Positions 1,014 to 42,374 of a DNA stretch of 47,809 nt are shown here, one piece after another. Source of the stretch: a virus; IMG/VR virus record IMGVR_UViG_3300014886_000004, positions 1 through 47,809 of that record, one strand, 5' to 3'. Every line of letters starts with the position of its first letter. The stretch's first letter is position 1. The position numbers and the translations under genes are program-made. Under the pieces are notes generated by a model. It worked only from the letters and a program-made list of their open reading frames with translations, had not been told where the DNA came from and ran no database searches.

Positions 1014-1040
1014 GATAAGAATTTCTAATAAATTCTTATC
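1014..1040. promoter_or_regulatory. Perfect 11-bp inverted repeat between divergent genes
   Basis: GATAAGAATTT (1014-1024), five bases, then AAATTCTTATC (1030-1040) form a perfect palindrome in the 63-bp gap between the leftward deiminase-like gene and the rightward phosphoesterase gene. Each arm is a copy of a motif (AAGATAAGAATTT) that recurs before other modules at 4235, 26112, 35470 and 39977. The palindrome could be a pair of back-to-back promoter elements or an operator. No T-tract follows, so it does not look like a terminator. Confidence 0.6.
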
Positions 1041-8382: not shown

Positions 8383-9322
8383 TAAATAATGCTTGTTTTA
8401 AGATTTTTGCTATTTCTCTTATTTCTTCTTGAGCTTGTAAAATACATCTTTTTTCTACAAAATCTTTCCATACAAATATTGGAGCAGAAGCAATCAAAGT
8501 AGTTGCAGTTCCTTGCGGCATTAGAAATCTTAATTCTTCTTTCCTAAATTTTTCTCTAACTTTTAAGCTTGTATATAAACCATACAAATCCTGAAAGTCC
8601 ATATAAATACGATTAAATAAATCATAATCTTCCTGAAATCTATAAGGCAAGCAGAAAGCATCTACATCAGTATATCTATGACTTCTCTGATTGAAATTGA
8701 TAGAAGTATGTCTTACCCATTGATGAGAACATACTCTACTAATATTATAAGCTAAAACTACTTTCCATTCTGGAATACTACTATTAAAGATAAAAAGCTT
8801 TGATTGTAAATACCTTGCATTAAATTCACTTAATTCAATAACAATATTAGATTTTAACTCAAATGATTTCATGAAATCATTATCCTTTCTCCAATCATAA
8901 AGCTCTATATCAATTAACTTTCTAAACTTTTCTTCTGGTAAGTTTTCTGCAAAATGTCTCAAAGTAAATATTGCTATAAATTCATCTATTGGAAATACTT
9001 TAAAGAAATATTTGAAAATTCTTTCTCTTGTTTCTACATTAATATCTGATAAATTAACAACAATTGGAGTATGAGCAAATATACTGAAATGTTTTTTCTC
9101 ATACAAATTAAGTAAAAATTGAGTTCTCTTTTCTTTATCTAAAAATTTTTCTTCAAATAGAATTCTGATAGGATAATCTGAATAATAGCAAATTCTTGCT
9201 CCTAAATAACTGAAAATCAAATCTTTTTTTAGGCTCTCTTTATTCATTCTTTCATATAACAATTCAGCATAATATTTTCTTTTTTCTTTTAGATAAGTTT
9301 CATAATTGTTTTTTGTTAGCAT
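8369..9322 (-). CDS. thyX: Flavin-dependent thymidylate synthase ThyX
   Basis: ThyX converts dUMP to dTMP with methylenetetrahydrofolate and reduced FAD. The family signature is at 204-217, RHTSINFNQRSHRY, which keeps the core Arg, His, Asn, Ser, Arg and Tyr, although the third residue of the classical RHR is Thr. The C-terminal block RFLMPQGTATTLIASAP (about 263-279) is also typical. At 317 residues it is longer than many ThyX proteins because of an N-terminal extension. It lies between the two primase candidates and complements the anaerobic ribonucleotide reductase in feeding phage DNA synthesis. Confidence 0.92.
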   Translation of the reverse strand: MLTKNNYETYLKEKRKYYAELLYERMNKESLKKDLIFSYLGARICYYSDYPIRILFEEKFLDKEKRTQFLLNLYEKKHFSIFAHTPIVVNLSDINVETRERIFKYFFKVFPIDEFIAIFTLRHFAENLPEEKFRKLIDIELYDWRKDNDFMKSFELKSNIVIELSEFNARYLQSKLFIFNSSIPEWKVVLAYNISRVCSHQWVRHTSINFNQRSHRYTDVDAFCLPYRFQEDYDLFNRIYMDFQDLYGLYTSLKVREKFRKEELRFLMPQGTATTLIASAPIFVWKDFVEKRCILQAQEEIREIAKILKQALFNEKT

Positions 9323-20053: not shown

Positions 20054-20338
20054 TTATTGCTCCTTTTTACCTTTTTCTACTTCATAACAAATTTCCTGAA
20101 TAATATTTTGCAATTTAATTATTTTGCAATAAATCGCATTTTCAGAACTTACTTTTTGAGATTCCATCCATTTTCTAATTGCTTTACATATTTCCAGTAT
20201 ATCTTTTAAATACTTTAGTTGAATAAAACCCGAACTAAGCAAAAGTTCTTTAAGATCAAGTTCAACAGTAATATCAATCTTTATACCTTTTTCTCTTGAA
20301 CCTTTCAGCTCATTGAGTATTGCCTTTATTATGCTCAT
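20054..20338 (-). CDS. Small early protein, 94 aa, unknown
   Basis: A soluble helical protein (IKAILNELKGSREKGIKIDI at the N-terminus, then a Leu-rich core). The start overlaps the end of the 20310-20489 frame by 29 bp and is preceded by GAAGGAGAAAG, a good ribosome site. No family was recognised. Confidence 0.5.
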   Translation of the reverse strand: MSIIKAILNELKGSREKGIKIDITVELDLKELLLSSGFIQLKYLKDILEICKAIRKWMESQKVSSENAIYCKIIKLQNIIQEICYEVEKGKKEQ

Positions 20339-20489
20339 GTTTATCTTTCTCCTTCACAAAATAGTTTTTATAAACATAAGAAGACATATATCTTATTAAA
20401 ACCCATTCCAATGCTTTAGCCCAGTAGAAAAACTCTGGATTATATTCATACATTGGATCAATCGTTGTAGTATTACTATCCCGAAACAT
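20310..20489 (-). CDS. First gene of the leftward operon, 59 aa, near-leaderless
   Basis: I read this frame by hand: ATG at 20489, stop TGA at 20310-20312. The start begins seven bases after the -10 box of a consensus promoter, exactly where transcription should start, so the message is probably leaderless. The product (MFRDSNTTTIDPMYEYNPEF...) is Tyr- and Trp-rich with no known motif. An in-frame ATG at 20453 is an alternative start, but it has no ribosome site. Confidence 0.55.
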   Translation of the reverse strand: MFRDSNTTTIDPMYEYNPEFFYWAKALEWVLIRYMSSYVYKNYFVKEKDKHEHNKGNTQ

Positions 20490-20496
20490 TTCTATT

Positions 20497-20525
20497 ATTA
20501 TATCATGATTTTATTATTTTGTCAA
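20497..20525 (-). promoter_or_regulatory. Consensus promoter of the leftward early operon
   Basis: TTGACA (20520-20525), a 17-base spacer ending CATGA and TATAAT (20497-20502), followed by AATAGAA and the ATG at 20489. It is the best match to consensus in the window and the likely start of the 17-kb leftward operon. It is back to back with promoter 20536-20563. Confidence 0.88.
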
Positions 20526-20535
20526 CACTAAAAAG

Positions 20536-20563
20536 TTGAAATTTTAAATTTTTATGATAAAAT
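20536..20563 (+). promoter_or_regulatory. Rightward promoter in the divergent control region
   Basis: TTGAAA (20536-20541), 16 bases, TAAAAT (20558-20563), ten bases before the ATG at 20574 with no Shine-Dalgarno site. Its -35 box is 10 bp from the -35 box of the leftward promoter, so one protein bound between them could control both directions. Confidence 0.65.
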
Positions 20564-20573
20564 AAAAAGTAAA

Positions 20574-20843
20574 ATGAAAACAGAAGACAAAATTTATCAA
20601 GAAGTAAATAATCTAATTAAAAGCTTATACAATTCAGATGGAACTATTAATATCAAAAAGCTAAAGGAATTGCAGCTTTATGGTTCTTCTGTCAATTGGG
20701 GGGATTTAAGCTGTTGCCATGTAGAAAAAGCTTATGTAGTTTATGTCAGTGAAGCTGCTCCTGATGCTTATGCATTACAGAGGTATATAGAAGAAGAAAT
20801 GAGAAAGAAAGGTTATAAAGTTAAAGTAATAACAGAATGGTGA
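20574..20843 (+). CDS. Small protein at the divergent switch, 89 aa, unknown
   Basis: A soluble protein with helices at both ends and a polar middle (YGSSVNWGDLSCCHVEKAYVV). No helix-turn-helix is evident, though a regulator role would suit its place beside the divergent promoters. The ATG follows the promoter closely without a ribosome site, suggesting a near-leaderless message. Confidence 0.55.
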   Translation: MKTEDKIYQEVNNLIKSLYNSDGTINIKKLKELQLYGSSVNWGDLSCCHVEKAYVVYVSEAAPDAYALQRYIEEEMRKKGYKVKVITEW

Positions 20844-20850
20844 CAATCTC

Positions 20851-20991
20851 ATGAAAACATTTCTATTAATCCTTTATGCATATTCCATCTCTCTGCTAAC
20901 AATTGCAATACTGAAAAGCAAACCTGCCCTTGCAATGCTCGTTGCAATATTCGTAGGAATACTATCAGCATTAATATCAAAAGAAAATTAA
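20851..20991 (+). CDS. Small two-helix membrane protein, 46 aa
   Basis: I read this frame by hand: ATG at 20851, stop TAA at 20989-20991. It has two hydrophobic segments (about 3-21 and 26-42) separated by KSKPA, a typical hairpin membrane protein. It starts seven bases after the stop of the previous gene. There is no strong ribosome site, so translational coupling is likely. Confidence 0.5.
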   Translation: MKTFLLILYAYSISLLTIAILKSKPALAMLVAIFVGILSALISKEN

Positions 20992-21431
20992 ACTTAAAAT
21001 AAACCCACCAAAATAATACTATAGCAATAGCAAAAATCTAAAAAATCTCTATTCCAATAATAGTTCCTTAACCAAAAATCAAAAAACAAAACAAATTAAT
21101 GAGAAATTTTACCTTTAAAATTTCGAATGAATTAAAAAAGAAAAATTTCTTAAATTCAAACAAAAAGTAAAAAACAAATAGAATAAAAAATAAAATAAAA
21201 ATCAAAATAAGAAAAAAGAAACTTATATTCCAAAAATAGTAAGTAAAAAGAAAAGAAATCCTACTAAATGAATTTAGAAAAATCTATCTTAATTTCTTCT
21301 ATTAATAACTACCTTAAAACCTCTTTCTCTATACTTTATATCCTCTATCCTTCTTATAATCAATATCAAAAGTATAACATATGAATCTAATACTTTTTCT
21401 TTCTTTAAATAACTGCTTCAAATCCTTTTTA

Positions 21432-21468
21432 ATATTTCATATCCCTTACTCCGTAAGATATGAAATAT
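21432..21468. repeat. 16-bp inverted repeat (hairpin) in gene-free block
   Basis: ATATTTCATATC (21432-21443) pairs with GATATGAAATAT (21457-21468), and TTAC pairs with GTAA inside it, leaving a two-base CC bulge and a three-base TCC loop. The stem is AT-rich with no T-run directly downstream, so it is unlikely to be a rho-independent terminator. It may be a cruciform, operator or origin element. Confidence 0.75.
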
Positions 21469-21538
21469 AGTATAAAATACCAAACTTCAAAAGATGATAA
21501 TAAGAAAAAAATTTATGATAATTTTATATGAAAAAATA

Positions 21539-21566
21539 TTGAAGAAAATGAAAAGTATGGTATAAT
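21539..21566 (+). promoter_or_regulatory. Sigma70-type promoter, rightward
   Basis: TTGAAG (21539-21544), 16 bases, TATAAT (21561-21566) followed by AATAAG, the same downstream bases as the leftward early promoters. It leads to AAGGAGG (21583-21589) and the ATG at 21600, so it should drive the zinc-protein, RAMP-like and polA genes. Confidence 0.8.
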
Positions 21567-21599
21567 AATAAGAAAAAGAAGTAAGGAGGCAATAAAGGG

Positions 21600-21980
21600 A
21601 TGGTAATGGTTAGAAATAGGTTATATTCTGAAAAAGATTATAAAGGACAGTGGATTGATGCTCCTGATGAATGTTGTCCTTGCAGACCTTGTTGGCATTT
21701 GTATCATTTTCCTTGGTGGGATAGTTCAGGAAAGATGCATAGTCATTTTAATTGTGTTACAAGACATAATAGTGGATGTCCTTTTCCTAAACTAAGACCT
21801 CTTCATATTTTTTATCTTTCTAAGAGATTTAAAAAGAGAAAGAAAGGGGATGTATTCAGATGTTTAAGATGTGGAAAGGAAGTAAGGCTAGGAGAAGAAG
21901 AATGTGATTGGATAGCTGTTCCACATCGTCAAAGAAAGAAAATTATAGAATATTTAAGACAAAAGGGAATAAGAGCATAA
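21600..21980 (+). CDS. Zinc-binding protein, 126 aa, unknown
   Basis: The start is ATG 21600, ten bases after AAGGAGG; a second ATG at 21606 is possible. The protein is rich in Cys and His: ECCPCRPCWHLYHF (25-38), HSHFNCVTRHNSGCPF (48-63) and a zinc-ribbon half-site FRCLRCGKEV (86-95), suggesting at least two metal sites. The end is basic. It could bind DNA or RNA. It shares an operon with the RAMP-like protein and the polymerase. Confidence 0.6.
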   Translation: MVMVRNRLYSEKDYKGQWIDAPDECCPCRPCWHLYHFPWWDSSGKMHSHFNCVTRHNSGCPFPKLRPLHIFYLSKRFKKRKKGDVFRCLRCGKEVRLGEEECDWIAVPHRQRKKIIEYLRQKGIRA

Positions 21981-22004
21981 AAACACAAGAAAGGAGGGGA
22001 CAAG

Positions 22005-22805
22005 ATGATAGAAACATTAGAGTTAGTAGTAAGGTTAAGTTTTATTTCTGACATACTTGGGACAGCTCCAAGTCCAGAATTATTGAAATTAGATTTCTTT
22101 AAAATGATTGGAAAGAAAGCTTTAAAGGATGCAAAGAAGTTGGAAAAAGAAACAGAAAGATTATCGACCGAAGCTTATACTAAAGAAGACTATAAGGTAT
22201 CAAAGTCTTCCGAAGAGAAAGAAAAGAATAATGAAATAACACAGATAACTTATTTCAGAAAAGATAATAAAGGAATTTATTTACCAAATTTTATGGTTAA
22301 GGGATTTCTTAAAGCTGCTGCTCAAGCTTTAAAGGAGCAAATTAACTTACCAAATCCAAGAGCGAAGATTGACAGATATGTTTTTATATTTCCTAACAAA
22401 ATTTATTTGTATAGAAATGGAAATGTTCTTAAGAAACATAAAGATGAGTATATTCGTCCAATAAGGGCAATGACTCCAAAGGGTGAGAGAACTTCTTTGG
22501 TATCATCTGAGAGAATTGAAGCATCGGAAGATAATCCTGTTATAACAGATGAAATTAGAATTGTGTTGATTAAGAATAGAGAAATAAATCTGAAGAAATT
22601 GAAGAAGATGTTGGAGTATGGACTTTATTCTGGAATAAGTCAATGGAGGAGTGCTGGATTTGGTAGATTTAAATGGGAGCTTATTTCTCAGACTGAAGAA
22701 ATAGAAGAGGAGAAGGAAAAAGTTGAGAATAAGAGTGAAAACGAAGAAAACAATAATGAAGTGAAGAAAAAGAAGATAAAAGTGAAAAAGGCAAATGAGA
22801 AGTGA
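22005..22805 (+). CDS. Possible RAMP/Cas7-fold RNA-binding protein
   Basis: 266 residues after AGGAGGGG. Three regions resemble RAMP (Cas5/Cas6/Cas7-type) proteins: an opening beta-strand ELVVRLSFISDILGTA (6-21), LPNFMVKGFLKAAAQAL (93-109), like the (I)PGSSLKGALR helix, and GISQWRSAGFGRFKWE (210-225), like the Gly-rich RSxGFGR loop. Residues 165-187 (LVSSERIEASEDNPVITDEI) fit the usual strand before it. The C-terminal 40 residues are a Glu/Lys tail. No other CRISPR gene is present. This rests on pattern recognition and needs structure comparison; an unrelated ferredoxin-like protein is the alternative. Confidence 0.4.
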   Translation: MIETLELVVRLSFISDILGTAPSPELLKLDFFKMIGKKALKDAKKLEKETERLSTEAYTKEDYKVSKSSEEKEKNNEITQITYFRKDNKGIYLPNFMVKGFLKAAAQALKEQINLPNPRAKIDRYVFIFPNKIYLYRNGNVLKKHKDEYIRPIRAMTPKGERTSLVSSERIEASEDNPVITDEIRIVLIKNREINLKKLKKMLEYGLYSGISQWRSAGFGRFKWELISQTEEIEEEKEKVENKSENEENNNEVKKKKIKVKKANEK

Positions 22806-26771: not shown

Positions 26772-26802
26772 AGCTTTGAAATTTTGTAGGAAGGAGGTCA
26801 GT

Positions 26803-29763
26803 ATGTATGGAATTGAATTGTTTTTCTCAAATACTTTATTTGGTAAGAGAGTTTATTCTTATTTTTTAAAAGAGCATCCAAAGATATTAGAATATTGGAA
26901 AATACATCCTAAGAATTTTGATTTTAATAAGTTTCAGAAGAAATATTTTACAGTTGATTATATTCAAGATATTTCTGCAAATCCTTCAAGTAATGTAACA
27001 AATAAAAGCATTGCAAGATTTAAAGTTGAAATGATAACTCCATTTATAAAGTATCTAACATTTTCAACTTTATTTGAGAAAATGGTAGAAATGTATGGGA
27101 TAAATGAAGCTACAGAATATTCAAAAATGTTATTAGATGGAACTTTTTATTTACATGATACAGCAGCTTATATAATGTCCTATTGTCTTGGAGTTGACTT
27201 CAGTAAACTATTATTAGAAGGAATGCCTTATGGTCAATTACATTCATTACCACCTAAAAAACCAAGAACTTTTATTAATCAAGTAAAGGAAGCAATAATT
27301 GAGTTATCAAGTGAATTTGCTGGTGCTATAGCATTTCCAAGCTTGATTGTTTTATACACTTACATTTATCTTAAATACTATGGAAAAGATTATAAGATAA
27401 ATGAGAAAGAAGTAGAAGATGATTTTCAAAATTTGGTTCATACAATTAATAAAGAATTAAGAAATGGGCAAGAAAGCCCCTTTTCCAATTTATCTTTCTT
27501 TGACAGATACATCTTAGATGAATTGTTGACTTATGTTTATTCCTATTTTACAAATGAAATAGGAGATAAGGAATTATTTCTTAAGAGAATTTTAGAAATT
27601 CAAGAAATTGTAATGGAATTTTTATGTAAAGGAGATCCAATTACAAAAGCTCCTTATAGATTTCCTGTAATTACTGTAAATTTTATCAAAGATAAGAAAA
27701 TGGGAAAAATATTGGATAGAGAATTTTTAGATTTAGTAGCTAAAAATAACACAAAAGGACAAATGAATATTTATGTTTCTGATGATGCAAGAAAATATTC
27801 CTTATGTTGTCGTTTTCAGCCAGACATTACCACATTTAAATTTGATAGTTTTGGTAATGGTGGAATCAATGTTGGTTGCTATGATGAGAAAACAGAAGTA
27901 TTAACTGATAGAGGTTGGAAGTATTTTAAGGATTTGAAAGAAGAAGATTTAGTTTTGACTTTAAATATGGAGACAGGGAAAGCAGAATTTCAAAAACCTA
28001 CTCACTATTTTGAGTATGAATATGAAGGAATTATGCACCATTATAAGTCAAGAGATATTGATTTGCTTGTTACTCCTAACCATAATATGTTAGTCAAGTC
28101 AAGGAAAACAGGAGAATTGAAACTAATAAAATCAGAAGATTTGAATGGTCAAGGATATAATTTACCTGTTTCTGGATTTCATATTAGTAAAGATAAATTA
28201 GGAACCATTACTATTGGGAATAAAAAATATGATAGCAAAGTTTTTTGTAGATTTTTGGGTTTCTTTTTAGCAGATGGTTCATGCTATCTTAATGAAGAAA
28301 TTGCAAAAAAATATGGTTGGGAAATATCTTTTTCAGTAAAAAAGAGTAGAAAAATTAAGTTTTTGAAAAGGGTTTTAGAAAAAATGCAAGCTAAATATAA
28401 TAAATATCAAGATAGATTTGCTATTTACGAAGGTAAAGAATTTTATGAATTTTTAAGAAAATTTTATGATAGTGAAAACAAAAAGTGTATAGATAAAGAT
28501 TTTATGTTAAAGCTTGGATATGAAGATTTGCTATGTTTATTTGAAGGTTTAATAGAAGGAGATGGTTATAATAATAAAAAAGCTAATCAGGTTATTTTTT
28601 ATACTTCTTCTGATAAATTAAAAGATGATTTTTGTTACCTTTGTGCTTTAATAGGTTATCAAACAACTGTAAGAAAGAAAGGTAATCCCAGAATTAGAGA
28701 AACTTATTTTAAAAAAGAAAATAGGGTAATTATTGGAAAATGTTATGAAATAGTTGTTAGAAGAAATAAAGAAATCCATAAAATAGTGAAATATAAACAG
28801 ACAAGATATTATAAAGGAAAAGTTTATTGTGTTGAAGTTCCAAATCATATTCTAATGATTAGAAGAAATGGACATACTTTATGGTGTGGTAATAGTATCC
28901 GAGTTCTTACTATAAATCTTAATAGAATAGCTTTAGAAGTGTTAGAGCAAATTGAGGATAATTTTGATATTGATTACAAGACTATTTACTTACAAAAGCT
29001 TAAAGAGAGAATGAATGTTGCAAAGAAAATTTTAGATAGTTTTAGAGAATGTATAAGAAACTTCATCAAGCAAAGTTGTTATAGATTTTTCAATCTTGGT
29101 TGGTTTGATTTGGATAAGCATTTCTATTCTACAATTGGTTTTATTGGATTATATGAAGCATTGAGAACTTTAGATAAAGATTTAAGAAGTAGCTTTGCAA
29201 TAGATATTTTAGAAACAATGGATGATATGATTACAGAGTTCAATAAAAATAGAAAAATAAAATACAACTTAGAGCAAGTTCCTGGAGAAAGTGCAGCAGG
29301 ATTACTTCCAAGTCTTGACAGATATTTTTATGGAGAAGAAAAAGTTCCTTATGTTTTATATTCCAATCAATTTGTTCCTTTATATGAAAGACATTCAATA
29401 CTTGATAAAATAGAAATAGAAGGAAGATATTTTAAGTATCTATCTGGAGGTGGGATAAGTCATATAAATATATTACATGAAATGAAGCCAGAAGAAGTTA
29501 AGTTTTTGATTGAATTATGTGTAGAAAAAGGAATAGAGCATTTTGCATTAAATCCAGTTTATTCTATTTGTGAAAATGGACATTATTTATTGGGAAAATA
29601 TGATGAATGTTATATTTGTGGAGCAAAAATAAAAGATCATTTGACAAGAGTAGTAGGTTTCTTCACTCCAGTTAGTGCTTGGAATGACAAGCGAAGAAAT
29701 TGGGAATTTTCAAGAAGAGTTTGGAATACTCTAAAAGGAGATATAAAGAGAGAAAAGAAATAA
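26803..29763 (+). CDS. nrdD: Anaerobic ribonucleoside-triphosphate reductase NrdD with one intein
   Basis: I set the start at ATG 26803, four bases after AAGGAGGT, rather than at the upstream in-frame TTG 26776. The precursor is 986 residues; after removal of the 339-residue intein about 647 remain, normal for class III reductases. The C-terminal glycyl-radical site is TRVVGFFTPVSAWN with Gly952, and the zinc site is SICENGH...CYICGAK. The enzyme reduces ribonucleoside triphosphates without oxygen and implies an anoxic host. The intein is inserted between Gly and Ser at the join NVG|SIRVLTINL, so splicing is required for activity. Confidence 0.93.
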   Translation: MYGIELFFSNTLFGKRVYSYFLKEHPKILEYWKIHPKNFDFNKFQKKYFTVDYIQDISANPSSNVTNKSIARFKVEMITPFIKYLTFSTLFEKMVEMYGINEATEYSKMLLDGTFYLHDTAAYIMSYCLGVDFSKLLLEGMPYGQLHSLPPKKPRTFINQVKEAIIELSSEFAGAIAFPSLIVLYTYIYLKYYGKDYKINEKEVEDDFQNLVHTINKELRNGQESPFSNLSFFDRYILDELLTYVYSYFTNEIGDKELFLKRILEIQEIVMEFLCKGDPITKAPYRFPVITVNFIKDKKMGKILDREFLDLVAKNNTKGQMNIYVSDDARKYSLCCRFQPDITTFKFDSFGNGGINVGCYDEKTEVLTDRGWKYFKDLKEEDLVLTLNMETGKAEFQKPTHYFEYEYEGIMHHYKSRDIDLLVTPNHNMLVKSRKTGELKLIKSEDLNGQGYNLPVSGFHISKDKLGTITIGNKKYDSKVFCRFLGFFLADGSCYLNEEIAKKYGWEISFSVKKSRKIKFLKRVLEKMQAKYNKYQDRFAIYEGKEFYEFLRKFYDSENKKCIDKDFMLKLGYEDLLCLFEGLIEGDGYNNKKANQVIFYTSSDKLKDDFCYLCALIGYQTTVRKKGNPRIRETYFKKENRVIIGKCYEIVVRRNKEIHKIVKYKQTRYYKGKVYCVEVPNHILMIRRNGHTLWCGNSIRVLTINLNRIALEVLEQIEDNFDIDYKTIYLQKLKERMNVAKKILDSFRECIRNFIKQSCYRFFNLGWFDLDKHFYSTIGFIGLYEALRTLDKDLRSSFAIDILETMDDMITEFNKNRKIKYNLEQVPGESAAGLLPSLDRYFYGEEKVPYVLYSNQFVPLYERHSILDKIEIEGRYFKYLSGGGISHINILHEMKPEEVKFLIELCVEKGIEHFALNPVYSICENGHYLLGKYDECYICGAKIKDHLTRVVGFFTPVSAWNDKRRNWEFSRRVWNTLKGDIKREKK
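27877..28893 (+). other. LAGLIDADG intein in NrdD
   Basis: 339 residues beginning CYDEKTEVLTDRGW and ending RRNGHTLWCGN, with Ser as the +1 residue. Block B is TPNHNML. LAGLIDADG motifs are FLGFFLADGS and LFEGLIEGDGYN, each with its acidic residue. The Gly-Asn end without penultimate His is shared with both phosphoesterase inteins. Confidence 0.9.
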
Positions 29764-33148: not shown

Positions 33149-34114
33149 TTATGTTATTTTTATGACACTTAAAAAAGTTGCTCCATAGCCACCTCGAAGC
33201 GTTGAAGAATTATTTAAGTTTTTTGCATAAAGTTCGATGTAATCAGAAGCGTTTAAATTTAATATTTTGCTTATAATTAAATCGTGTGTGTCCGCTTCAG
33301 CTGCTTGTAACACTGTTGAAAATTTTTCAGCTCCGTTGATGTAAATTGCATTTATCAAAAAATCTCCTGCTGCACCTGGAATAAATCTTATTTTTCCTGT
33401 TATTAAGTATTTACCTGTTTCATTCACAGTAATACGATTGTTTGTAGAATCAAACTCATTTTGAGTGTCAATCTCTGTAGTATCTAAAGCTACTTTTGTC
33501 CATGTGTTTGCACTAATTGACTGATCTGTAGAAAGATATACTACACAACAGCTTTGCTTAGGAAAAGTTAAAATTCCTGCAGTGCTGATATTAAAAACTT
33601 GAGTTCCTGAAATAGAAATACTTATATCTGAATCAGAACTTACAGGAACAAAATCTGAAGCATGTTTACCATCTAAAAGATCAGCATCTAACCCTGAACC
33701 ACTTCCTTGTTTTATCCAATCATTTATATATCCACTACTATTGGCAACTGGGATAGTAAGTGGTGTAGGGGAAATATCCGCATGATGCCCATCAACTGTA
33801 TCACTATCTAAACCGCTCCCGCTACCGTCAACGTTTTTAAGCTTTGTCAATATTGTATTATCATCAACATTGCTTAAATCAACTTTAGCAAGATAACTTT
33901 CAAGCTGAGTAGATAAATTTGCTATTGTATCTTTTATCCATTTAGAAGTAGAACTATCATATCTTAAAATATTCCAATTATCAGGAGTTGAATTCCATAA
34001 ATCTTCAAACTTTGCTAAATAATCATTTAATTTTTGGAAGTTAGAAGAGTATATTGCATTCCACCCAGAAGTTCCATAATCACATCCCTCAAGCTGTGTG
34101 GGCTCGTATGTCAT
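33149..34114 (-). CDS. Tail fibre with collar-type repeats and C1q/TNF-like end
   Basis: 321 residues. Residues about 93-112 and 135-154 carry phage fibre repeats of the form GSGSGLD-D-DGHHA / GSGSGLDADLLDGKHASDF, which form trimeric shafts. The C-terminal 130 residues are beta-rich with N-G-R-Y-L-I and a final GGYGATFLSVIKI, resembling C1q/TNF-like receptor-binding heads. It probably contacts the host surface. The first 26 bases overlap the end of the DUF723 endonuclease gene. Confidence 0.75.
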   Translation of the reverse strand: MTYEPTQLEGCDYGTSGWNAIYSSNFQKLNDYLAKFEDLWNSTPDNWNILRYDSSTSKWIKDTIANLSTQLESYLAKVDLSNVDDNTILTKLKNVDGSGSGLDSDTVDGHHADISPTPLTIPVANSSGYINDWIKQGSGSGLDADLLDGKHASDFVPVSSDSDISISISGTQVFNISTAGILTFPKQSCCVVYLSTDQSISANTWTKVALDTTEIDTQNEFDSTNNRITVNETGKYLITGKIRFIPGAAGDFLINAIYINGAEKFSTVLQAAEADTHDLIISKILNLNASDYIELYAKNLNNSSTLRGGYGATFLSVIKIT

Positions 34115-35459
34115 GGTAATAGCCTCCTTCTCTATCTGAATTTAGTATATCTTTTACAAAAATTTCAGTATTGCCGTTACTTATTAGTATTTTTTCATTT
34201 CCATTATATAAGAAATCTTTATATTCTTTTAGAATCTTTTGTTCTTCTTTGAGAGCCTCATAACCATTTTCAAATTTCCAAACCCTAATAACTTTTATCT
34301 TTTTTTGGTCTTCTGGTTTAAATCTATTATAAATATCCTTTTTATTTGTAATCCCAATCTTGTAAAAGTCTTTGTTATTATGTTCTATTCTTATATAATA
34401 CAGAAAACTTGGTTTTGTAAAATCAATTCCTCCTTTATTACAATGAGGACAACCATATCCAGTAAGATGATTATGGGGAGTTTGTAAGAAGATTCTATTA
34501 CAGTTTTTACAAATTATTTTGACTTTTGTATCTTTATTTACATATTTTACTAAACTATAATCATATTTGTTTCCATGAATCCTTTTAGCTTTTTCGATAA
34601 ATTTCTCTTTACCTATTTTCTCTTTTTCTTTAATTCTTTCTATTGCACATTTTGGGCAGCCATTCCCTTGTAAGTGCATGTAAGCTAATTGTTCAAAAAT
34701 TCCATGTTTAGGGCAAATAATTTTAACTTTACTATGAGCTTTTTCATATTCTACTAATGAGTAGTCATACTTGTTTCCATGAACCTTTTTAGCTTTTTCT
34801 ATGAATTGTTCTCTTGTCATTGTTTGTCTTTTGCTTCGTTCTTCTAAAGCACATTTAGGACAACCTTGACCACTTAAATGTCTATTAGGAGTTTGTTCAA
34901 ATATTCCATGTTTTGGACATATAATTTTAACTTTTGTTTTGTTATTCTTATATTCTACTAAAGAGTAATCATATTTATTACCATAAATTTTTTGGGCTTT
35001 TTGAATAAACTCTTCTTTCGTCATTGATAATTTTTGTCTAATTTTTTCTATTCCACACTTAGGACATCCTTCCTTTCTTCTTAAATGTCTATATGGAGTA
35101 GTTTGAAATTCACCATGTTCAGGGCATATTACAGTTATAGGAGTATCACAATTAACATAAATCACTTTTGAGTAATCATACTTTCCCTTGTGGACTTCAG
35201 TAGCTTCTTTAATAAACTCTTCTAAAGACATTTTTCTTTTATCTGAATTCCTTTTTATGGTACACTTTTTACATCCTTTACTTCTTAATAGAGCATAAGG
35301 TAAAACTTCCCAAACATAACCACATTTTTTACATTTTACTTTAACTTTTGTTTTACTATTGACATAAACTGTTTCTGAAAAATCAAAAATATCATTACCA
35401 AATCTTTCAATACATCTTCTTATGAATTCTTCTTGAGTTAATTCTCTTTTTCTTTTCAT
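34089..35459 (-). CDS. DUF723-repeat GIY-YIG homing-type endonuclease
   Basis: I prefer ATG 35459; an in-frame TTG at 35471 would add four residues. Neither has a good ribosome site. Five tandem DUF723-type zinc modules (pattern HGNKYDYSLVEY, KVKIICPKHG, GCPKC) cover residues 5-330 and should bind DNA. The C-terminal domain has LYYIRI and FYKIGIT, the GIY-YIG nuclease pair, then NRF and E-rich helix ALKEEQKILKEY. Such genes are selfish free-standing endonucleases. Its stop lies 26 bp inside the tail-fibre gene, so the insertion is tightly fitted between two genes. Confidence 0.8.
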   Translation of the reverse strand: MKRKRELTQEEFIRRCIERFGNDIFDFSETVYVNSKTKVKVKCKKCGYVWEVLPYALLRSKGCKKCTIKRNSDKRKMSLEEFIKEATEVHKGKYDYSKVIYVNCDTPITVICPEHGEFQTTPYRHLRRKEGCPKCGIEKIRQKLSMTKEEFIQKAQKIYGNKYDYSLVEYKNNKTKVKIICPKHGIFEQTPNRHLSGQGCPKCALEERSKRQTMTREQFIEKAKKVHGNKYDYSLVEYEKAHSKVKIICPKHGIFEQLAYMHLQGNGCPKCAIERIKEKEKIGKEKFIEKAKRIHGNKYDYSLVKYVNKDTKVKIICKNCNRIFLQTPHNHLTGYGCPHCNKGGIDFTKPSFLYYIRIEHNNKDFYKIGITNKKDIYNRFKPEDQKKIKVIRVWKFENGYEALKEEQKILKEYKDFLYNGNEKILISNGNTEIFVKDILNSDREGGYYHDIRAHTA

Positions 35460-35469
35460 CTTTTTTTTC

Positions 35470-35513
35470 AAATTCTTATCTTAGCATTTTATTCTTAAAT
35501 TGCAATACTTCTT
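35470..35513 (-). repeat. Right-cassette boundary repeat with AAGATAAGAATTT motif
   Basis: This 44-bp stretch matches 39977-40020 at about 35 of 44 positions without gaps, in the same orientation. It contains AAATTCTTAT, TTCTTAA and TTGCAATA. At 39977 the copy includes the last codons of the tail hub gene, whereas here it is noncoding. The two copies bracket the five-gene glycan cassette. TTGCAA stands 17 bases upstream of the AAGATAAGAATTT motif in both copies, which may be promoter spacing. Confidence 0.65.
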
Positions 35514-35528
35514 AGGATTTTGGTATTA

Positions 35529-36305
35529 TTACCTTTCTATTTTAATCCAATTTTCAATTTTGCAAATCTCTTGCAATTTCTTTCTGTAAACAGTATATAA
35601 TCTATTCCTCATTTCTAAATACTCTTTTGGCTTATAATTTATGTATTTTGCTTGAATACAATTCGAATAAAATTTTAGCCATCCTTTTTCTTTCATAATA
35701 TAATGCCACAATTCGTGTTCACATAATTTCAATTCTTCGGGACACTTGCAGTCTAATAAGCATTCTATTTTAGCTATAAAGAAATTTCTTGTAATGCTAA
35801 CTGGAAGAAATTTTATATTCTTATAAACTATAGGAGGTTCTTTTGGAGTCTTAAGTAAAAAATATTTTCCTTTTACTAATTCAATATCATATTCATACTT
35901 TACCCTACCAACTAATTCAAACCCTACCAAAGCTCTTTTTTCTTCTTGACTAAGAAATTCAAGAACTATTTGAATTTCTTTATCATAATTTCTTTCAAAA
36001 ATGATACTATCTGCTATTAGAAATACAAAATTACAATTGCTCTCATAAGCCTTTTCAACTAAGAAATTTCTTGCTTTACATAATCCACAATCATATTCTA
36101 ACTTATAGTATTGTCTTTTTGCTTTTGTGTTATTTCTGAATCCTAACTTGTCAAAGTAATTATCTTTCTCTTTTGTAAAATGACCTTGATCTGCTACTAT
36201 TATGTAATAATCAGGGTAATATTTTACTAAAGCATTGATACATTGATATAAGAGTTTATCTCTTAGAAAAGTAGTAACTAAAAATGCTAAATTATTCATA
36301 ACCAA
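35529..36305 (-). CDS. GT2-type glycosyltransferase
   Basis: 258 residues with the nucleotide-sugar-binding fold of family 2 transferases: FLVTTFLRDKLLYQCINAL (start), YYIIVADQG, YKLEYDCGLCKARNFLV, and CNFVFLIADSIIFE, where the acidic residues take the place of DxD. It is the last gene of the glycan cassette, overlapping the sulfotransferase gene upstream by 14 bp. Acceptor and sugar are unknown. Confidence 0.75.
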   Translation of the reverse strand: MVMNNLAFLVTTFLRDKLLYQCINALVKYYPDYYIIVADQGHFTKEKDNYFDKLGFRNNTKAKRQYYKLEYDCGLCKARNFLVEKAYESNCNFVFLIADSIIFERNYDKEIQIVLEFLSQEEKRALVGFELVGRVKYEYDIELVKGKYFLLKTPKEPPIVYKNIKFLPVSITRNFFIAKIECLLDCKCPEELKLCEHELWHYIMKEKGWLKFYSNCIQAKYINYKPKEYLEMRNRLYTVYRKKLQEICKIENWIKIER

Positions 36306-37047
36306 AAATCTTTTTGAAAGTTTGAATTTTAATGTTTTCTCTAACTAACTTTATTTCTAATGGTGTTAATATTCTTTTGTATCTATTTTTATCAAAGAAA
36401 ATTTCTCTACTTCTCTTTAGACTTGGGTTACCATAAAGATAATGATGTTCAAGATTCCAAAATTGTAACATCTTTGGTTCAAACTCAATTCCTATAAAAT
36501 TACAAATATCTTCAGTAGTTTTCTCTGGAAACTGTGCTAAATTTTCATACTTAACTAAATAACTTACTTCTTTATACTGAGAATAAAAATAAAGTAATCT
36601 TTGCACTATTTCTGTCCACCTTACTATAGCTTTCTCTGGAGAATAAGATATTCTTTTACCTTTATAGAAAATGGTTTTCTGTTTTTTTAAAGAAGCTACA
36701 AATTCTTCAGGTTGTCTTATTAAAAAAATAAATTTTATTTTTACTTCGTATTTCTGACTATGTTTCTTTAGAAACCAAGTAAAGTCTTTTGAACTATCAA
36801 CTAAAATATCTTTATTTGTAACATCAAATAGTAAGTCATAAATATTGTCAATGGAAAACTTTTCCCGCTTTATCTTTGACCATATAGAGCAATTATTACG
36901 ACAGTATACACAAATAAAGAACCTATTTTCTCTGAAAGCTTTTGCTAACTCTCCTACATTAAATATTTTAGAATGTGAACCTAAAATAGTAGATAAGAGA
37001 GTTGAACCAGAATGGGGTGGACTTGCTATATTAACTACTAATTTCAT
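36292..37047 (-). CDS. PAPS-dependent sulfotransferase
   Basis: 251 residues with the 5'-phosphosulfate-binding loop IASPPHSGSTLLSTIL (7-22, like family loop PRSGTT) and a 3'-phosphate-binding segment FLIRQPEEFVASLKK, followed by VKYENLA. Such enzymes move sulfate from PAPS to a hydroxyl on a sugar or protein. Between two glycosyltransferase genes, a sugar acceptor is most likely. Overlaps both neighbours by 14-17 bp. Confidence 0.8.
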   Translation of the reverse strand: MKLVVNIASPPHSGSTLLSTILGSHSKIFNVGELAKAFRENRFFICVYCRNNCSIWSKIKREKFSIDNIYDLLFDVTNKDILVDSSKDFTWFLKKHSQKYEVKIKFIFLIRQPEEFVASLKKQKTIFYKGKRISYSPEKAIVRWTEIVQRLLYFYSQYKEVSYLVKYENLAQFPEKTTEDICNFIGIEFEPKMLQFWNLEHHYLYGNPSLKRSREIFFDKNRYKRILTPLEIKLVRENIKIQTFKKIFGYE

Positions 37048-38683
37048 AAGCTATTCCTTTTAAATCTAATTTAAATTCTCTTATTTGTGGGTATAATTGT
37101 CTAACTAACCTTTTACCTAAATACTTTCTCTTGTCTATTTCAAACTTTTCTTTTACAATAGACAAATTTTTTCTTTTATCTATTTCATTAGCCAATACAG
37201 GATGTTCTATATGATAAAGAATGCAATGAGGATAAGCTGGAATTACTTTTATACCTTTTGCTATAAATCTTTCAATTAAATCATTATCTTCAATTCCCCA
37301 GCCTTCTAATCTTTCATCAAAACCCCCAATCTCTATATAGTTCTTCTTATAACCAGCAGAAATACCTAAACCAAAAGGATAAAAGTAGGAATTGTCAAAT
37401 AAATTTCCACTCAAATCTTCATATTTAATATATCTTACATCAAAACTAATTATTTTATTTTTATCCAAAAATCTTTCTAATCTACTTGTAAACTCTTTTT
37501 CCAATACAATATCAGCATCTATAAAACATACATATTCATAATTAGCTAAAAATAATCCTGTATTCAAAGCTTTACTCCTACCCCATTTATCAGCTTCAAC
37601 TCTATACAGAAACCAATCAATTTGTAATTGATTCTTACATAATTCATACAGCAAACTGCTATATGTTTCGTCTGAACCATAGTCGATAACAATTAATTCA
37701 AAATTCTTGTATTCTTGTTCATTAATACTTTTCAGAAACTCTTTTACTAACTTCAAATCTTTATTTCTTATACCAACAATAAAACTTATGTTCTTTCTTT
37801 CTTTTTGTTTAAAAGAAGGTAAGAACATCTTATTATCGTGTATGAATTTAGCATGCCCATTTGTCATAAAATTAGAAGCAAACTTTTTTATTTCAGTAAT
37901 TTTCTTATTATTAAACCAAAAAACAGTTTTTCTAAATTTAATTCTTTCTTCTGCAGTTTTCAAATTTTCCAAATGTCTGCTATGTTTCTGATGATAGAGT
38001 GAAGTAAAATTATCAATCCATAATTCCTTGCAACCTTTAGCTAATAATCTCATATACAAATCTTGTCCATGTCCTACAGACATTAATTCTATATTCATTC
38101 CACAAACTAACTTCATCAGCTCAGTTGATACAGTTATGGAATTTCCATATCCATGTCTTAAATCTGCTTTATTTAAATAAAAGTCTTTTTCAAATCTTTC
38201 AAAATTTAATCTATTAGGAACATAAGGTAAACATTTCCTTTTACAGAAAATGATAGCATTAGGATATTTCTGTAATGTTTTTAAAGTTACTTCAACAAAA
38301 TTAGGACTATGTATTTCATCAACATCTCCATAATGTATATACAGTGTGTTTATTCTTTCGGTTGCATAAATCAAAGCTAAAGGTTTGTTTGGATAGTCTT
38401 CTTTGTGATAAATATATTCAACTTCAAGTTCTTTACAAATTTCTATATATCTATTACTATACCTTTTATTGCTACTTATATCTGACAATATAATTTTAGG
38501 TTTGCCAATATTCTGATTACAGAGCGACAATAAAGTATTATAAACTATCTTAGGTCTAACATTCCAAGCTGGAAAACAAAAAGTAATGTCAGTAGGTTTT
38601 AATTTTAATTCTTGATTAATTATTTCATTATTTATATACTTACCAAATTTATGTTCGAATCCTATTGTAGACTTTTCTATCAC
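37031..38683 (-). CDS. Two-domain GT2 glycosyltransferase
   Basis: 550 residues with two GT-A domains. The first (about 30-260) has FCFPAWNVRPKIVYNTLL and YIHYGDVDEIHSPNF, with GDVD fitting DxD; the second (about 296-520) has ISFIVGIRNKDLKLVKEFL, VIDYGSDETYSSL, CFIDADIVLE with clear DAD, and GFDERLEGWGIEDNDL, as in chondroitin-synthase-like and other processive enzymes. It may add two alternating sugars. It overlaps the upstream sulfotransferase by ATGA. Confidence 0.85.
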   Translation of the reverse strand: MIEKSTIGFEHKFGKYINNEIINQELKLKPTDITFCFPAWNVRPKIVYNTLLSLCNQNIGKPKIILSDISSNKRYSNRYIEICKELEVEYIYHKEDYPNKPLALIYATERINTLYIHYGDVDEIHSPNFVEVTLKTLQKYPNAIIFCKRKCLPYVPNRLNFERFEKDFYLNKADLRHGYGNSITVSTELMKLVCGMNIELMSVGHGQDLYMRLLAKGCKELWIDNFTSLYHQKHSRHLENLKTAEERIKFRKTVFWFNNKKITEIKKFASNFMTNGHAKFIHDNKMFLPSFKQKERKNISFIVGIRNKDLKLVKEFLKSINEQEYKNFELIVIDYGSDETYSSLLYELCKNQLQIDWFLYRVEADKWGRSKALNTGLFLANYEYVCFIDADIVLEKEFTSRLERFLDKNKIISFDVRYIKYEDLSGNLFDNSYFYPFGLGISAGYKKNYIEIGGFDERLEGWGIEDNDLIERFIAKGIKVIPAYPHCILYHIEHPVLANEIDKRKNLSIVKEKFEIDKRKYLGKRLVRQLYPQIREFKLDLKGIAYEISS

Positions 38684-39303
38684 CCTTTATTTTCCCACAC
38701 AAATCTATAAACTCTATCCTTTTCTGGTATTTCTAAATAGTCAAACAATTCTTTTTGCTTCTCTTTTTTGTTCAAATCATAAACATATATCCAAAAGATT
38801 TCACTTTTTATCTTTAAATTCTTCACTCTATTCATATATAATTCCCAATATTCAGCAATTGCTTCTCTTTTAGTAGTTGTATAATCTAAATCTGGAAAAG
38901 CGATATCCCAAATACTATCTTTATATATTTTATCTTTCCTTTTACTTGAATGCCAATGATTTCTTAGAATTCCGTCTTTTTCTGTCTTTCTTATAAAAGA
39001 TTCAACTACTTCTTCCTTGTCTCTCCAAATATGTACTACTTTTAGATTATCTAAATGATTATCAAAAAATTCAATATAATTCAGATAATAGAAAGCTGTA
39101 TCCCCCACTAATTGACCTTGAAAACTTTGTAACTCTTTCAATCTTTGCCGAGCTTTGTTAATATTAAAATTCCAATGTAATATTCCTTGTGGGGCTTTAT
39201 ACTCATGATAAACACAACAATTCTTACAACCATCTATTAGCTTTGCAATAGAAACAGTTCCACAACGACCTGTTCCAATTATAATCACATATTTCTTACT
39301 CAT
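38680..39303 (-). CDS. PAPS-dependent sulfotransferase
   Basis: 207 residues with the P-loop-like IIGTGRCGTVSIAKLI (8-23) that binds the 5'-phosphosulfate of PAPS, and VVHIWRDKEEVVESFIRK (88-105), which binds the 3'-phosphate. Middle DTAFYYLNY carries a potential acceptor-site segment. It is a second, distinct sulfotransferase in the same cassette. Confidence 0.8.
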   Translation of the reverse strand: MSKKYVIIIGTGRCGTVSIAKLIDGCKNCCVYHEYKAPQGILHWNFNINKARQRLKELQSFQGQLVGDTAFYYLNYIEFFDNHLDNLKVVHIWRDKEEVVESFIRKTEKDGILRNHWHSSKRKDKIYKDSIWDIAFPDLDYTTTKREAIAEYWELYMNRVKNLKIKSEIFWIYVYDLNKKEKQKELFDYLEIPEKDRVYRFVWENKG

Positions 39304-39305
39304 CT

Positions 39306-39968
39306 TTATTTCTTTTCTTTAAATAAATCAAAAAGATTTACATAAGGAATATACTCATTTAAACCTGACTTTTCATAACAAGAATATACTTGAATCCCTT
39401 TTTCTTTTAAAGCTTCAATAGTTCTTACAAATTCTGTTATGAAAAAATTACAAATTTTTTTCTTAATGCTTTTTACCCAAGATTCTGGATAATCATCATG
39501 AAAATGCATTTTATCTGTTCCAAAATGTTCTTTAACTAAATCAATTCCTACCAGATAAATAGGATTTAGACCTAATAAGTACGCAATTCTTAAAGCTACT
39601 ACTCCACTATTATTAGCAGTCCTAATACAATTAAAAGTAGTAGGCAAATAATTAGCAGTACAGTTCTTAAATATAAAAGTATCTTCTCTATCCTTAAAAT
39701 CTTGAAGTCTTTCTGCCCAACTTGGGGCTAATTTAATGCAATCTAATTTATTAATCTCTTCTTTATATTGTTGATAGAATTTGAAATCTAAAAATATTAA
39801 AAATTTTACTTTACAGACTTTATAAGCTTTATTTGCTCCTACTGTTATTTCATCATTTAATAAGGAAAAATCAAACCCTTTCTCTTGATATTCTCTAATC
39901 GAATATCCCCCACCAATAACAAAACCTCTTTTTCCTTTGTATTTATTTATATATTCCGATAAATTCAT
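39306..39968 (-). CDS. DUF115/MAF-like glycosyltransferase, first gene of glycan cassette
   Basis: 220 residues with GFVIGGGYSI (15-24) and NNSGVVALRIAYLLGLNPIYLVGIDL (about 119-144; this matches the family pattern GsalaL-A-LG-pIyLlG-D), features of the DUF115 / motility-accessory-factor family, some of which glycosylate proteins with sialic-acid-like sugars. ATG 39968 follows the boundary repeat directly without a ribosome site. This hints that the cassette may modify a protein rather than only a polysaccharide. Confidence 0.65.
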   Translation of the reverse strand: MNLSEYINKYKGKRGFVIGGGYSIREYQEKGFDFSLLNDEITVGANKAYKVCKVKFLIFLDFKFYQQYKEEINKLDCIKLAPSWAERLQDFKDREDTFIFKNCTANYLPTTFNCIRTANNSGVVALRIAYLLGLNPIYLVGIDLVKEHFGTDKMHFHDDYPESWVKSIKKKICNFFITEFVRTIEALKEKGIQVYSCYEKSGLNEYIPYVNLFDLFKEKK

Positions 39969-39976
39969 ATTTTTCT

Positions 39977-40020
39977 AAATTCTTATTCTGATATTTCATT
40001 CTTAATTTGCAATATATTCT
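39977..40020 (-). repeat. Left-cassette boundary repeat, overlaps end of tail hub gene
   Basis: Direct-repeat partner of 35470-35513, about 80% identical. In the minus strand it spans the last codons and stop of the tail hub gene and a motif AATAAGAATTT close to the DUF115-like start, so it could also serve as the cassette's promoter (TTGCAA, 17-base gap, motif). Confidence 0.65.
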
Positions 40021-42374
40021 CCATCAGCAGTTCCAACTGTTAGACTTAAGCTATCAGAATAATACCCATTCCATTTAGCTCTTACAGATAAAGTAAAGCT
40101 ATTTGAGTTATCAATTGTAAAATGGCAGGTATCATATAAGGTCTCATCCCCACTATCGATATTCACTGCAATTTGTCCTTCATATTCAAATGGATATGTA
40201 TCAGTATAACTATCAGGACTTACTTTGCCTGCTCCTGTTAAGTAAACTTTTGTTATTGGAAATACATCTATTTTTACTATACTTCCACTTCTTACTGCTT
40301 TAATTCTTTCTGGTTTCAATGGTTTCCTTGCCTTTAATGTAGGATTGATTTCAATTGCAGTAGCATCTTCTAAACTTCCAATCCTATCTGCAAAAACTGG
40401 AACTATTTTCATGTAAAAAGTAGAAGTGTAATTTAACTGTATTACATTATCTGCAATTTCCGTAATAAAAGCTTCGGCATTGGCATTATGACTTGCTTTA
40501 CCAGACCAATGTATTCCTCTTATAATTCCAGTTATATGATAATCGGTATCACCATAAGGGTCATAATTTTGAAATGCCATTATTTCGTCATCTATTATCA
40601 AAACTCTTGGTTCTATAAACAATCTATCTCTTGATATATTATCATAAACTTTAAATTCCTTATAAGGTCTAAATATTACTCCTACTTCATCATCTATATC
40701 ATAAGTTGTATCTGGATAATCATTAACAATAGTTCCTGCTGTTGCAAATGTCTTAAAAGTTCCTTGATACTTATAATCTGTTCCATCAGTACTTACATAA
40801 ACAGCAAATCCTGTTTCATATCCTTTTTCTTTGCTAACACAAATCAAATAAGCTGGATTAGTTTTATAAGTTTCTGTATATTCTAACTCCACTATCTTTA
40901 TTTTTGTAAAAGGAGTTAAATCATAAGTGGGAGTAATCCAATGAGTTCCACCAGTATCAAGATAATGTTCATCAAATATTACATCTGTATGTTGTAACAA
41001 TGTCATTTCAACTTCATTGCTATCAATTTTTGGTTCACTAATACTGACAATTCTAAAATCTCCTTTTATTCCAATTTCAGTATTTTCTATTGTTATAACA
41101 TCTCCGATATTGTAGTAGGAATATTTTAATGGAACAGTAATATTCAATGCAATTCTTGGATAGCTCTCTCTTTTCATTACATCAAAAAGTCTTTTTAAAG
41201 CAATACTTCTTTGAGAAAATGCTGTCAAATCATAAGTCTTCTGAATATCTTTACCAGCAAGAAGCTTTGCAGCAGGATTTTCTACTACCAAAGTTCTTAC
41301 TACTCCATTTTCTACAAAATTCGCTTGAAACTCATTAGGAACAGTATTCCAGCTTGGTTTACTAAATTGAAAAGAAATAAAATCGTCTTTTATTGTTCCA
41401 ACTGAAGTATCACTTTTCTTTAAAACTCTTATTGTAATTTTTCCATTATCATCATATTCCAATTGAGCATCTACCATATCACAAATTTCCTGAACAACTT
41501 CTCTTAACTCTCTTGTAGAAGAAATAACATAACTAATTCCTATTTTCTGATTGTAAAAATATTCTGCTGCTTCTGAAAATGAAGTAGAATTAATATAAGT
41601 TACATCTAATTTTCCCCAATTAACCAATAAGTCATATATTACTGCTGCTGGATTATTTCCATAATAAACTCCATCAACTTCTATATCTTCATAAGGTAAT
41701 CCTGTTTCTAATATTCTTCTAACCCAGAAATATATAGTAGGAACATAAGTTCTATTTAGTCCTATATGCATTTTCTTGAAAAAGATATGAGCAACTCCAG
41801 GAAGTCTGCTTGCATATTGTAAATCTGAATTATCTGAAGTAGTTGGATAATCTTCAGTTGTCCCATCATTAAATATTAGATAAGAAACATATACTTTATT
41901 ATTTGGAATATCACTAACAACTCCTACTGCAATAGAAAAAGGATATTCTTCTTCACCAATAGTTTTGCTTTCATCATTATCAATAAAAATCTTTTCTAAA
42001 GCAATCTTTCCCATACAGATTGCTTGCCAAATATCTAAATAATAGTGATAGCCAACGGTAACTTCTTCACTACCTCCACCTTTTCCACCTTCTACTTTTT
42101 CTGTTTCTTCTTCAGTTACTAAGCCTCCATAGTAGATAATATTTCCTGGAATTTTTACTCTACCATAAACAATTGGAATAGGTTGCCCTTCATTTGCTTG
42201 AGAAATAGAAAAATCAGATAAAGAAGCAGGTTTCATTTCCAATCCTTTAGGTTTAGGTCTATATAGATAAGCCAAATAAGATAATCCTGCCATTACAATA
42301 GCAGCAAGAATAGACCCAGTAAAATACCAAGTTAAAGCTCCAGTCATTAATACTCCTAAAAGCCAGCCAGCCAT
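40002..42374 (-). CDS. Tail tip / baseplate hub protein, J-like
   Basis: 790 residues. A hydrophobic start (1-36) is followed by DFSISQANEGQPIPIVYGRVKIPGNIIYYGGL (positions about 52-83), a block characteristic of siphophage central hub (TipJ, lambda gpJ and GTA hub) proteins; further on IWQAICMGKIALEKIFIDND and NPAAVIYDLLVN are also typical. Beta-rich domains fill the C-terminal half, including a Fn3-like end. It forms the tail tip that contacts and penetrates the envelope and follows the NlpC/P60 gene as in lambda-like tail modules. Confidence 0.85.
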   Translation of the reverse strand: MAGWLLGVLMTGALTWYFTGSILAAIVMAGLSYLAYLYRPKPKGLEMKPASLSDFSISQANEGQPIPIVYGRVKIPGNIIYYGGLVTEEETEKVEGGKGGGSEEVTVGYHYYLDIWQAICMGKIALEKIFIDNDESKTIGEEEYPFSIAVGVVSDIPNNKVYVSYLIFNDGTTEDYPTTSDNSDLQYASRLPGVAHIFFKKMHIGLNRTYVPTIYFWVRRILETGLPYEDIEVDGVYYGNNPAAVIYDLLVNWGKLDVTYINSTSFSEAAEYFYNQKIGISYVISSTRELREVVQEICDMVDAQLEYDDNGKITIRVLKKSDTSVGTIKDDFISFQFSKPSWNTVPNEFQANFVENGVVRTLVVENPAAKLLAGKDIQKTYDLTAFSQRSIALKRLFDVMKRESYPRIALNITVPLKYSYYNIGDVITIENTEIGIKGDFRIVSISEPKIDSNEVEMTLLQHTDVIFDEHYLDTGGTHWITPTYDLTPFTKIKIVELEYTETYKTNPAYLICVSKEKGYETGFAVYVSTDGTDYKYQGTFKTFATAGTIVNDYPDTTYDIDDEVGVIFRPYKEFKVYDNISRDRLFIEPRVLIIDDEIMAFQNYDPYGDTDYHITGIIRGIHWSGKASHNANAEAFITEIADNVIQLNYTSTFYMKIVPVFADRIGSLEDATAIEINPTLKARKPLKPERIKAVRSGSIVKIDVFPITKVYLTGAGKVSPDSYTDTYPFEYEGQIAVNIDSGDETLYDTCHFTIDNSNSFTLSVRAKWNGYYSDSLSLTVGTADGEYIAN

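Follow-up and report, generated by a model that had tools for sequence, protein, structure and literature searches.

Glycosylation of phage virions and phage-borne sulfotransferase genes are both already known; for sulfated phage virions, a search of open-licence papers returned no report. Glycosylation of capsid and tail-tube proteins has been described in phages (PMC12363180). The role of phage sulfotransferases has been stated to be unclear (PMC10580990). Other phages carry sugar-transfer genes as morons, such as the gtrABC genes of O-antigen conversion, and co-conversion of flanking sequence has been documented for free-standing homing endonuclease genes (PMC2988022). The window analysed here, a viral contig of 47,809 nucleotides taken at its full length, carries a cassette of glycan and sulfotransferase genes next to a homing endonuclease in its tail module.

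Gene content of the cassette

On the minus strand, five genes for sugar and sulfate transfer are flanked by the tail-hub gene and the gene for a homing endonuclease, in the order DUF115/sialyltransferase-like protein, sulfotransferase ST-A, two-domain GT2 glycosyltransferase, sulfotransferase ST-B and GT12-like glycosyltransferase (Table 1). Neighbouring genes overlap at three of the junctions and are 2 nt apart at the fourth; the cassette therefore reads as one operon in the direction of the tail genes. The overlapping arrangement and the two sulfotransferases agree with a preliminary description of this DNA. The last gene, listed there as a GT2, is instead GT12-like by its profile match to B4GALNT1, the second GT2 is corrected to a two-domain enzyme, and the homing endonuclease adjoining the cassette had been left outside the interval.

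Table 1. Features at the hub-fibre junction of the window
Feature	Position	Strand	Evidence or remark
Tail hub/central tail protein, upstream neighbour	40002..42374	-	phrog_1101 4e-70, Phage-tail_3; 96% identical in L002
Direct repeat copy A (hub 3' end, stop, spacer)	39970..40014	-	Orthologous single copy in L002 12361-12405
DUF115/MptE-like, sialyltransferase-like (GT42-type) protein	39306..39968	-	phrog_4603 alpha-2,3-sialyltransferase 1e-15; MptE-like 2e-4 (below cut-off)
Putative sulfotransferase ST-A	38680..39303	-	PAPS motifs, homologs over Sulfotransfer_4 cut-off, predicted fold
Two-domain glycosyltransferase	37031..38683	-	Glycos_transf_2 7e-28, CHGN 4e-12, Glyco_transf_7C 4e-13
Putative sulfotransferase ST-B (Sulfotransfer_3)	36292..37047	-	Sulfotransfer_3 7e-14 (above cut-off); CurM sulfotransferase 4gbm 4.5e-14
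GT12-like glycosyltransferase	35529..36305	-	Profile A3 vs B4GALNT1 3e-14
Direct repeat copy B (noncoding, just upstream of homing endonuclease start)	35463..35507	-	
Homing-endonuclease-like gene, free-standing	34089..35471; likely start ATG near 35459	-	phrog_681 endonuclease 1.7e-103
Tail fibre	33149..34114	-	N-terminus common to L002 and L004; tip different, C1q/BclA_C-like

No terminator-like sites were found within the cassette, and promoter-like matches, scored against the sigma-70 consensus only, were near chance (67 versus 56 expected). As the genes overlap and share the strand of the tail genes, the cassette is probably co-transcribed with them. Base composition carried no foreign signature (GC 0.26-0.29, compared to 0.28 overall). 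None of the cassette proteins reached a membrane-segment-like hydrophobicity peak, and no flippase or polyprenyl-phosphate transferase was found among them. The components of gtr seroconversion (GtrA flippase, GtrB bactoprenol glucosyltransferase and membrane-bound GtrC) were likewise not found, the cassette GT2 matching GtrB-like phrog_841 at only 9e-6 and at the domain level.

ST-B is a clear Sulfotransfer_3 protein; an SPPHSGSTLL loop and an IRQPEEFVAS motif (R-QPEEFVA-S) were read from its sequence. ST-A itself scored 15.9 bits, below the Pfam cut-off of 22.8, and passes a curated cut-off only via its homologs: those in phage loci L107, L109 and L110 (35-37% identical) exceed that of Sulfotransfer_4. 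The GTGRCG loop, S18, R94 and S102 of ST-A are invariant in nine phage homologs, and we take them to match the PAPS-binding motifs of the sulfotransferase superfamily. A 5'-phosphosulfate loop and a 3'-phosphate Arg/Ser motif are thus present in both proteins. The predicted model of ST-A (pLDDT 77.8) has a sulfotransferase fold; its best PDB matches were sulfotransferases (E 2e-5), with moderate TM-scores of 0.5-0.6. It resembles tyrosylprotein and other PAPS sulfotransferases as well as viral ones from Synechococcus phage S-SCSM1 and Xanthomonas phage FoX4; no annotated sulfotransferase was found in the hub neighbourhood of FoX4. We therefore regard both proteins as putative PAPS-dependent sulfotransferases, the weaker candidate, ST-A, being confirmed via its relatives and predicted fold.

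The C-terminal domain of the two-domain glycosyltransferase is of the GT2/chondroitin GalNAc-transferase/beta4GalT-like type. It retains the DAD and GWGxEDxD (GWGIEDND) motifs, and the structure matches were chondroitin synthase and beta4GalT. The GT12-like protein was aligned with three homologs to obtain the B4GALNT1 profile match. It has IADS where the homologs have DDD, and its activity is doubtful because of this loss. Its predicted model was poor (pLDDT 55.8) and was set aside.

The hub-fibre junction in related phages

The preliminary description had reported imperfect direct repeats on either side of the cassette. These were confirmed and refined to two 45-nt copies, identical at 36 positions and spaced 4507 nt apart. 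Copy A contains the final hub codons and stop, while copy B is noncoding provided that the endonuclease starts at its likely ATG. The preliminary description had likewise placed the hub end in one copy and called the other noncoding. The ungapped repeat score of 27 was reached by none of 1000 dinucleotide shuffles of both boundaries (mean 13.3, maximum 21) and, when real 300-nt stretches of this AT-rich window were paired at random, by one of 1452 pairs.

The insertion itself is apparent from L002 (IMG/VR 3300021513_000006), a near-identical relative. Its junction consists of the hub stop, one repeat copy, a Shine-Dalgarno sequence and the fibre ATG, and both the cassette and the homing endonuclease are absent. 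This empty site, where the repeat occurs once, identifies the cassette as an insertion. The hub region adjoining the repeat is 92.5% identical to that of L002. Identity between the copies was 36/45 for A and B, 36/45 for A and L002, and 33/45 for B and L002; as the three are about equally diverged, either the scar is of some age or these spacers change quickly.

In the window and L002-L005, a weight matrix made from copies A and B and the L002 copy matched at these three sites only, with scores of 52-54 and a next best of 18. This bears on another account of the repeats, namely that they are a recurring regulatory or ribosome-binding-site-like spacer motif and no insertion scar. Both copies directly precede a start codon, and at a few further gene junctions there are ATAAGAATTT-like cores. 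However, full-length matches are confined to two places in the window and one at the empty site, and the match extends through the final codons and stop of the hub. This account is already disfavoured, and we consider it highly improbable. The ATAAGAATTT-like cores were seen at window 26092, 4267 and 992-1062 and at L002:12970, and include an inverted pair near window 1015-1039, a possible regulatory element.

Further states of the junction were found in other relatives. In the more distant L005, L006, L007, L008 and L012 the hub is joined directly to the fibre. In L004 a DUF2341 gene lies between hub and fibre in place of the cassette, and just upstream of the fibre (L004:9606-9669) 18 residues of the endonuclease C-terminus persist as a remnant (score 67 in the alignment, compared to a maximum of 57 in 500 shuffles), a fossil of the homing-endonuclease insertion. 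L003 stops within the hub and was uninformative. The junction therefore exists in at least three states among the window and its relatives, and because L004 has both a different gene and an endonuclease remnant, it is a hotspot for gain and loss of homing endonucleases and host-interaction cassettes rather than a simple moron site. A distant relative, L011, carries its own sugar cassette downstream of the hub (L011:14861-21657; GT2, hexapeptide acetyltransferase and methyltransferases), which suggests that glycan genes have repeatedly entered this region.

Downstream, the window departs from L002 in its fibre tip and the genes after it, until about 32450. By this sequence comparison the cassette is part of a larger variable host-interaction block that includes the homing endonuclease and a different fibre tip, and the repeat-bounded interval is therefore not the sole change. 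On the proposed check for precise absence of the interval between the repeats, L002 lacks the cassette but differs in endonuclease and fibre tip too. The suggestion of an inserted moron stands as to insertion and absence of the genes from a close relative, but not as to a moron in the strict sense, with a promoter and terminator apart from the flanking operon: there is no terminator, promoter-like matches are near chance, and the genes overlap in a row on the strand of the tail genes. The preliminary description would have been refuted by relatives that all carry the genes without repeat scars or by sulfotransferases lacking PAPS residues; neither was the case.

The neighbouring endonuclease gene encodes zinc-finger repeats (DUF723/DUF4379) and a C-terminus judged by eye to be GIY-YIG-like. 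Its family, intergenic position and empty allele in relatives are those of a free-standing homing endonuclease gene, with putative cleavage activity. L002 has two adjacent homing-endonuclease-like genes (ETQYWLGFIYADG motif) at 20317-22247 that are absent from that place in the window. Since the cassette abuts such a gene, and co-conversion of flanks is documented (PMC2988022), it could be a passenger of no benefit to the phage, either dragged along as flanking DNA or hitch-hiking neutrally. Its absence from close relatives and the degenerate motif of one enzyme fit this reading, but the five frames are all intact and tightly packed, PAPS motifs are kept in both sulfotransferases and catalytic motifs in the two-domain glycosyltransferase, and sulfotransferase-glycosyltransferase pairs recur beside structural genes of unrelated phages. 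We consider a mere passenger unlikely.

Host, PAPS supply and relatives of the sulfotransferases

The phage host is probably Thermodesulfobacterium, a hot-spring bacterium. Binning and shared genes underlie the pairing: the window forms one complete contig in a 1.05-Mb metagenome-assembled genome (MAG) that is 70% complete, and window genes are 65-75% identical at the DNA level to parts of same-genus genomes (a set that includes Thermodesulfobacterium hydrogeniphilum DSM 14290) and to another contig of the MAG. A CRISPR-array match in a same-genus genome, to a poly-A/T low-complexity spacer at 88% identity, was discarded. For the proteins at window 1057-3861, 8369-9322 and 26776-29763, PHROG matches (thymidylate synthase, phrog_85; PhoH-like, phrog_32482) overlap in a manner suggestive of inteins, and inteins are possible in ribonucleotide reductase and other window genes.

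APS kinase was strong in 5 of 13 same-genus genomes and in pieces in two more, and several complete members of the genus are without it. No real APS kinase was found in the host MAG, which may be explained by its incompleteness. In genomes G002 and G006 the kinase is on the same contig as sulfotransferases, in glycan loci at G002:C7 24000-60000 (L105, L106) and G006:C37; these loci suggest sulfated surface polysaccharides in a sulfate reducer. As several Thermodesulfobacterium carry APS kinase in glycan loci, PAPS synthesis by the host is plausible.

Relatives of ST-A were found at 11 IMG/VR loci by an alignment-based scan and in 184 Salinibacter phage records by tblastn. Many of these loci are mutually related and so do not represent that many independent events; the distinct contexts number roughly four. 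In Salinibacter phages, as in L035, L111, L112 and L114, the homolog directly follows the major capsid gene (MCP) and is itself followed by a glycosyltransferase gene, which in the last three loci is of the GT12-like type. L115 shares this layout by position, and in L113 and L117 the block is cut at one side. ST-A homologs in these blocks are 24-28% identical in IMG/VR loci and 26% in L035. No notable flanking direct repeats were found around the halophile blocks, and in the Salinibacter records examined the genes are annotated only as hypothetical proteins. The block is a possible capsid-modification module. Elsewhere, the sulfotransferase lies upstream of the terminase (L109) or within a sugar cassette beside the terminase (L110). 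In L107 a tail-completion gene is followed by the gene for a 535-residue protein with the sulfotransferase at its N-terminus; the C-terminal part of this protein appeared glycosyltransferase-like by eye only and had no profile match.

No close relative was obtained from IMG/VR pattern scans with ST-A alone or with the GT2, ST-B and DUF115 proteins, or from a genome scan with ST-B. Host-genus genomes contained no relatives of ST-A, and those of ST-B and GT2 were distant or at the domain level only. Recent capture of the cassette from a sampled host is therefore unsupported.

Possible acceptors and comparison with described systems

We propose, with roughly even confidence, that the recombination-acquired cassette attaches a sulfated glycan to a virion protein. 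The 4.5-kb operon would have been gained at the hub-fibre junction in a lineage of Thermodesulfobacterium tailed phages, with the duplicated 45-nt hub end and spacer as the insertion scar. A cassette-bearing circle or donor may have recombined at the duplicated hub end, or an endonuclease-made break may have been repaired with co-conversion, as known for such genes (PMC2988022). Either route would leave the 45-nt duplication, and the phage carries a UvsX-like recombinase gene. The operon would be expressed late, with the tail genes; soluble glycosyltransferases would assemble a short glycan in the cytosol, and the two sulfotransferases would sulfate it from host PAPS. The most likely acceptor would be the hub, fibre or tail tube, giving a tail with a negatively charged sulfated coat.

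Alternatively, the cassette might remodel the surface of the infected host, adding sulfated sugars to the host's lipopolysaccharide core, S-layer or flagellar protein and so blocking re-adsorption of siblings or trapping of progeny. Enzymes of the DUF115/sialyltransferase-like and GT2 kinds typically serve in the glycosylation of host surfaces and flagellin, and the fibre tip changes within the same variable block. Sulfated surface glycans are plausible in both hosts, as sulfotransferases are present in the Thermodesulfobacterium loci, together with APS kinase, and in Salinibacter O-antigen clusters (PMC6060240). However, the cassette lacks Gtr-type membrane proteins, an acyltransferase and a polyprenyl glycosyltransferase, it would be expressed late along with the tail genes, and homologs occur next to capsid genes. 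Host remodelling is possible, though we hold it to be doubtful. Decoration of the virion is favoured over masking of the host because the genes recur beside capsid and tail genes and membrane components are lacking. Counting against virion decoration, the soluble core-type enzymes could also fit host lipopolysaccharide or glycoprotein, the GT12-like enzyme is without its DDD motif, and the host MAG is without a real APS kinase.

More tentatively, phages of several unrelated groups, among them thermophilic and halophilic ones, might independently have placed a sulfotransferase-glycosyltransferase module beside capsid or tail genes to display sulfated glycans. If true, this would explain what a class of so-called auxiliary sulfotransferase genes does. 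Their embedding in virion operons makes sulfated glycans on phage particles a concrete hypothesis, and the isolated Salinibacter ruber M8 phages are a cultivable system in which it can be tested.

Among described systems, the gtrABC and O-antigen conversion morons are likewise phage-borne sugar-transfer genes, but the window cassette has no membrane flippase, GtrB or GtrC and lies in the tail operon, not near attP. The endonuclease gene resembles T4-type seg/mob genes in its family, intergenic position and empty alleles in relatives, but differs in that five cassette genes and a duplicated 45-nt flank lie next to it. Phage sulfotransferases classed as auxiliary metabolic genes (OM43 phages, PMC10580990; S-SCSM1, FoX4) share the PAPS-sulfotransferase fold and the Sulfotransfer_3 family, whereas those of the window are paired with glycosyltransferases within a structural module, as part of a demonstrated insertion. 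As reported in PMC12363180, citing Freeman et al. 2023, mycobacteriophages Che8, Corndog and Myrna also encode glycosyltransferases, with capsid and tail-tube proteins as acceptors; the window differs in its two sulfotransferases and a five-gene operon beside the hub, and its acceptors are candidates. The MCP blocks of Salinibacter and IMG/VR phages (L035, L111, L112, L114, L115) likewise have an ST-A homolog followed by a GT-A-type glycosyltransferase beside a virion gene, but there the two genes lie behind the capsid gene, compared to five in the window.
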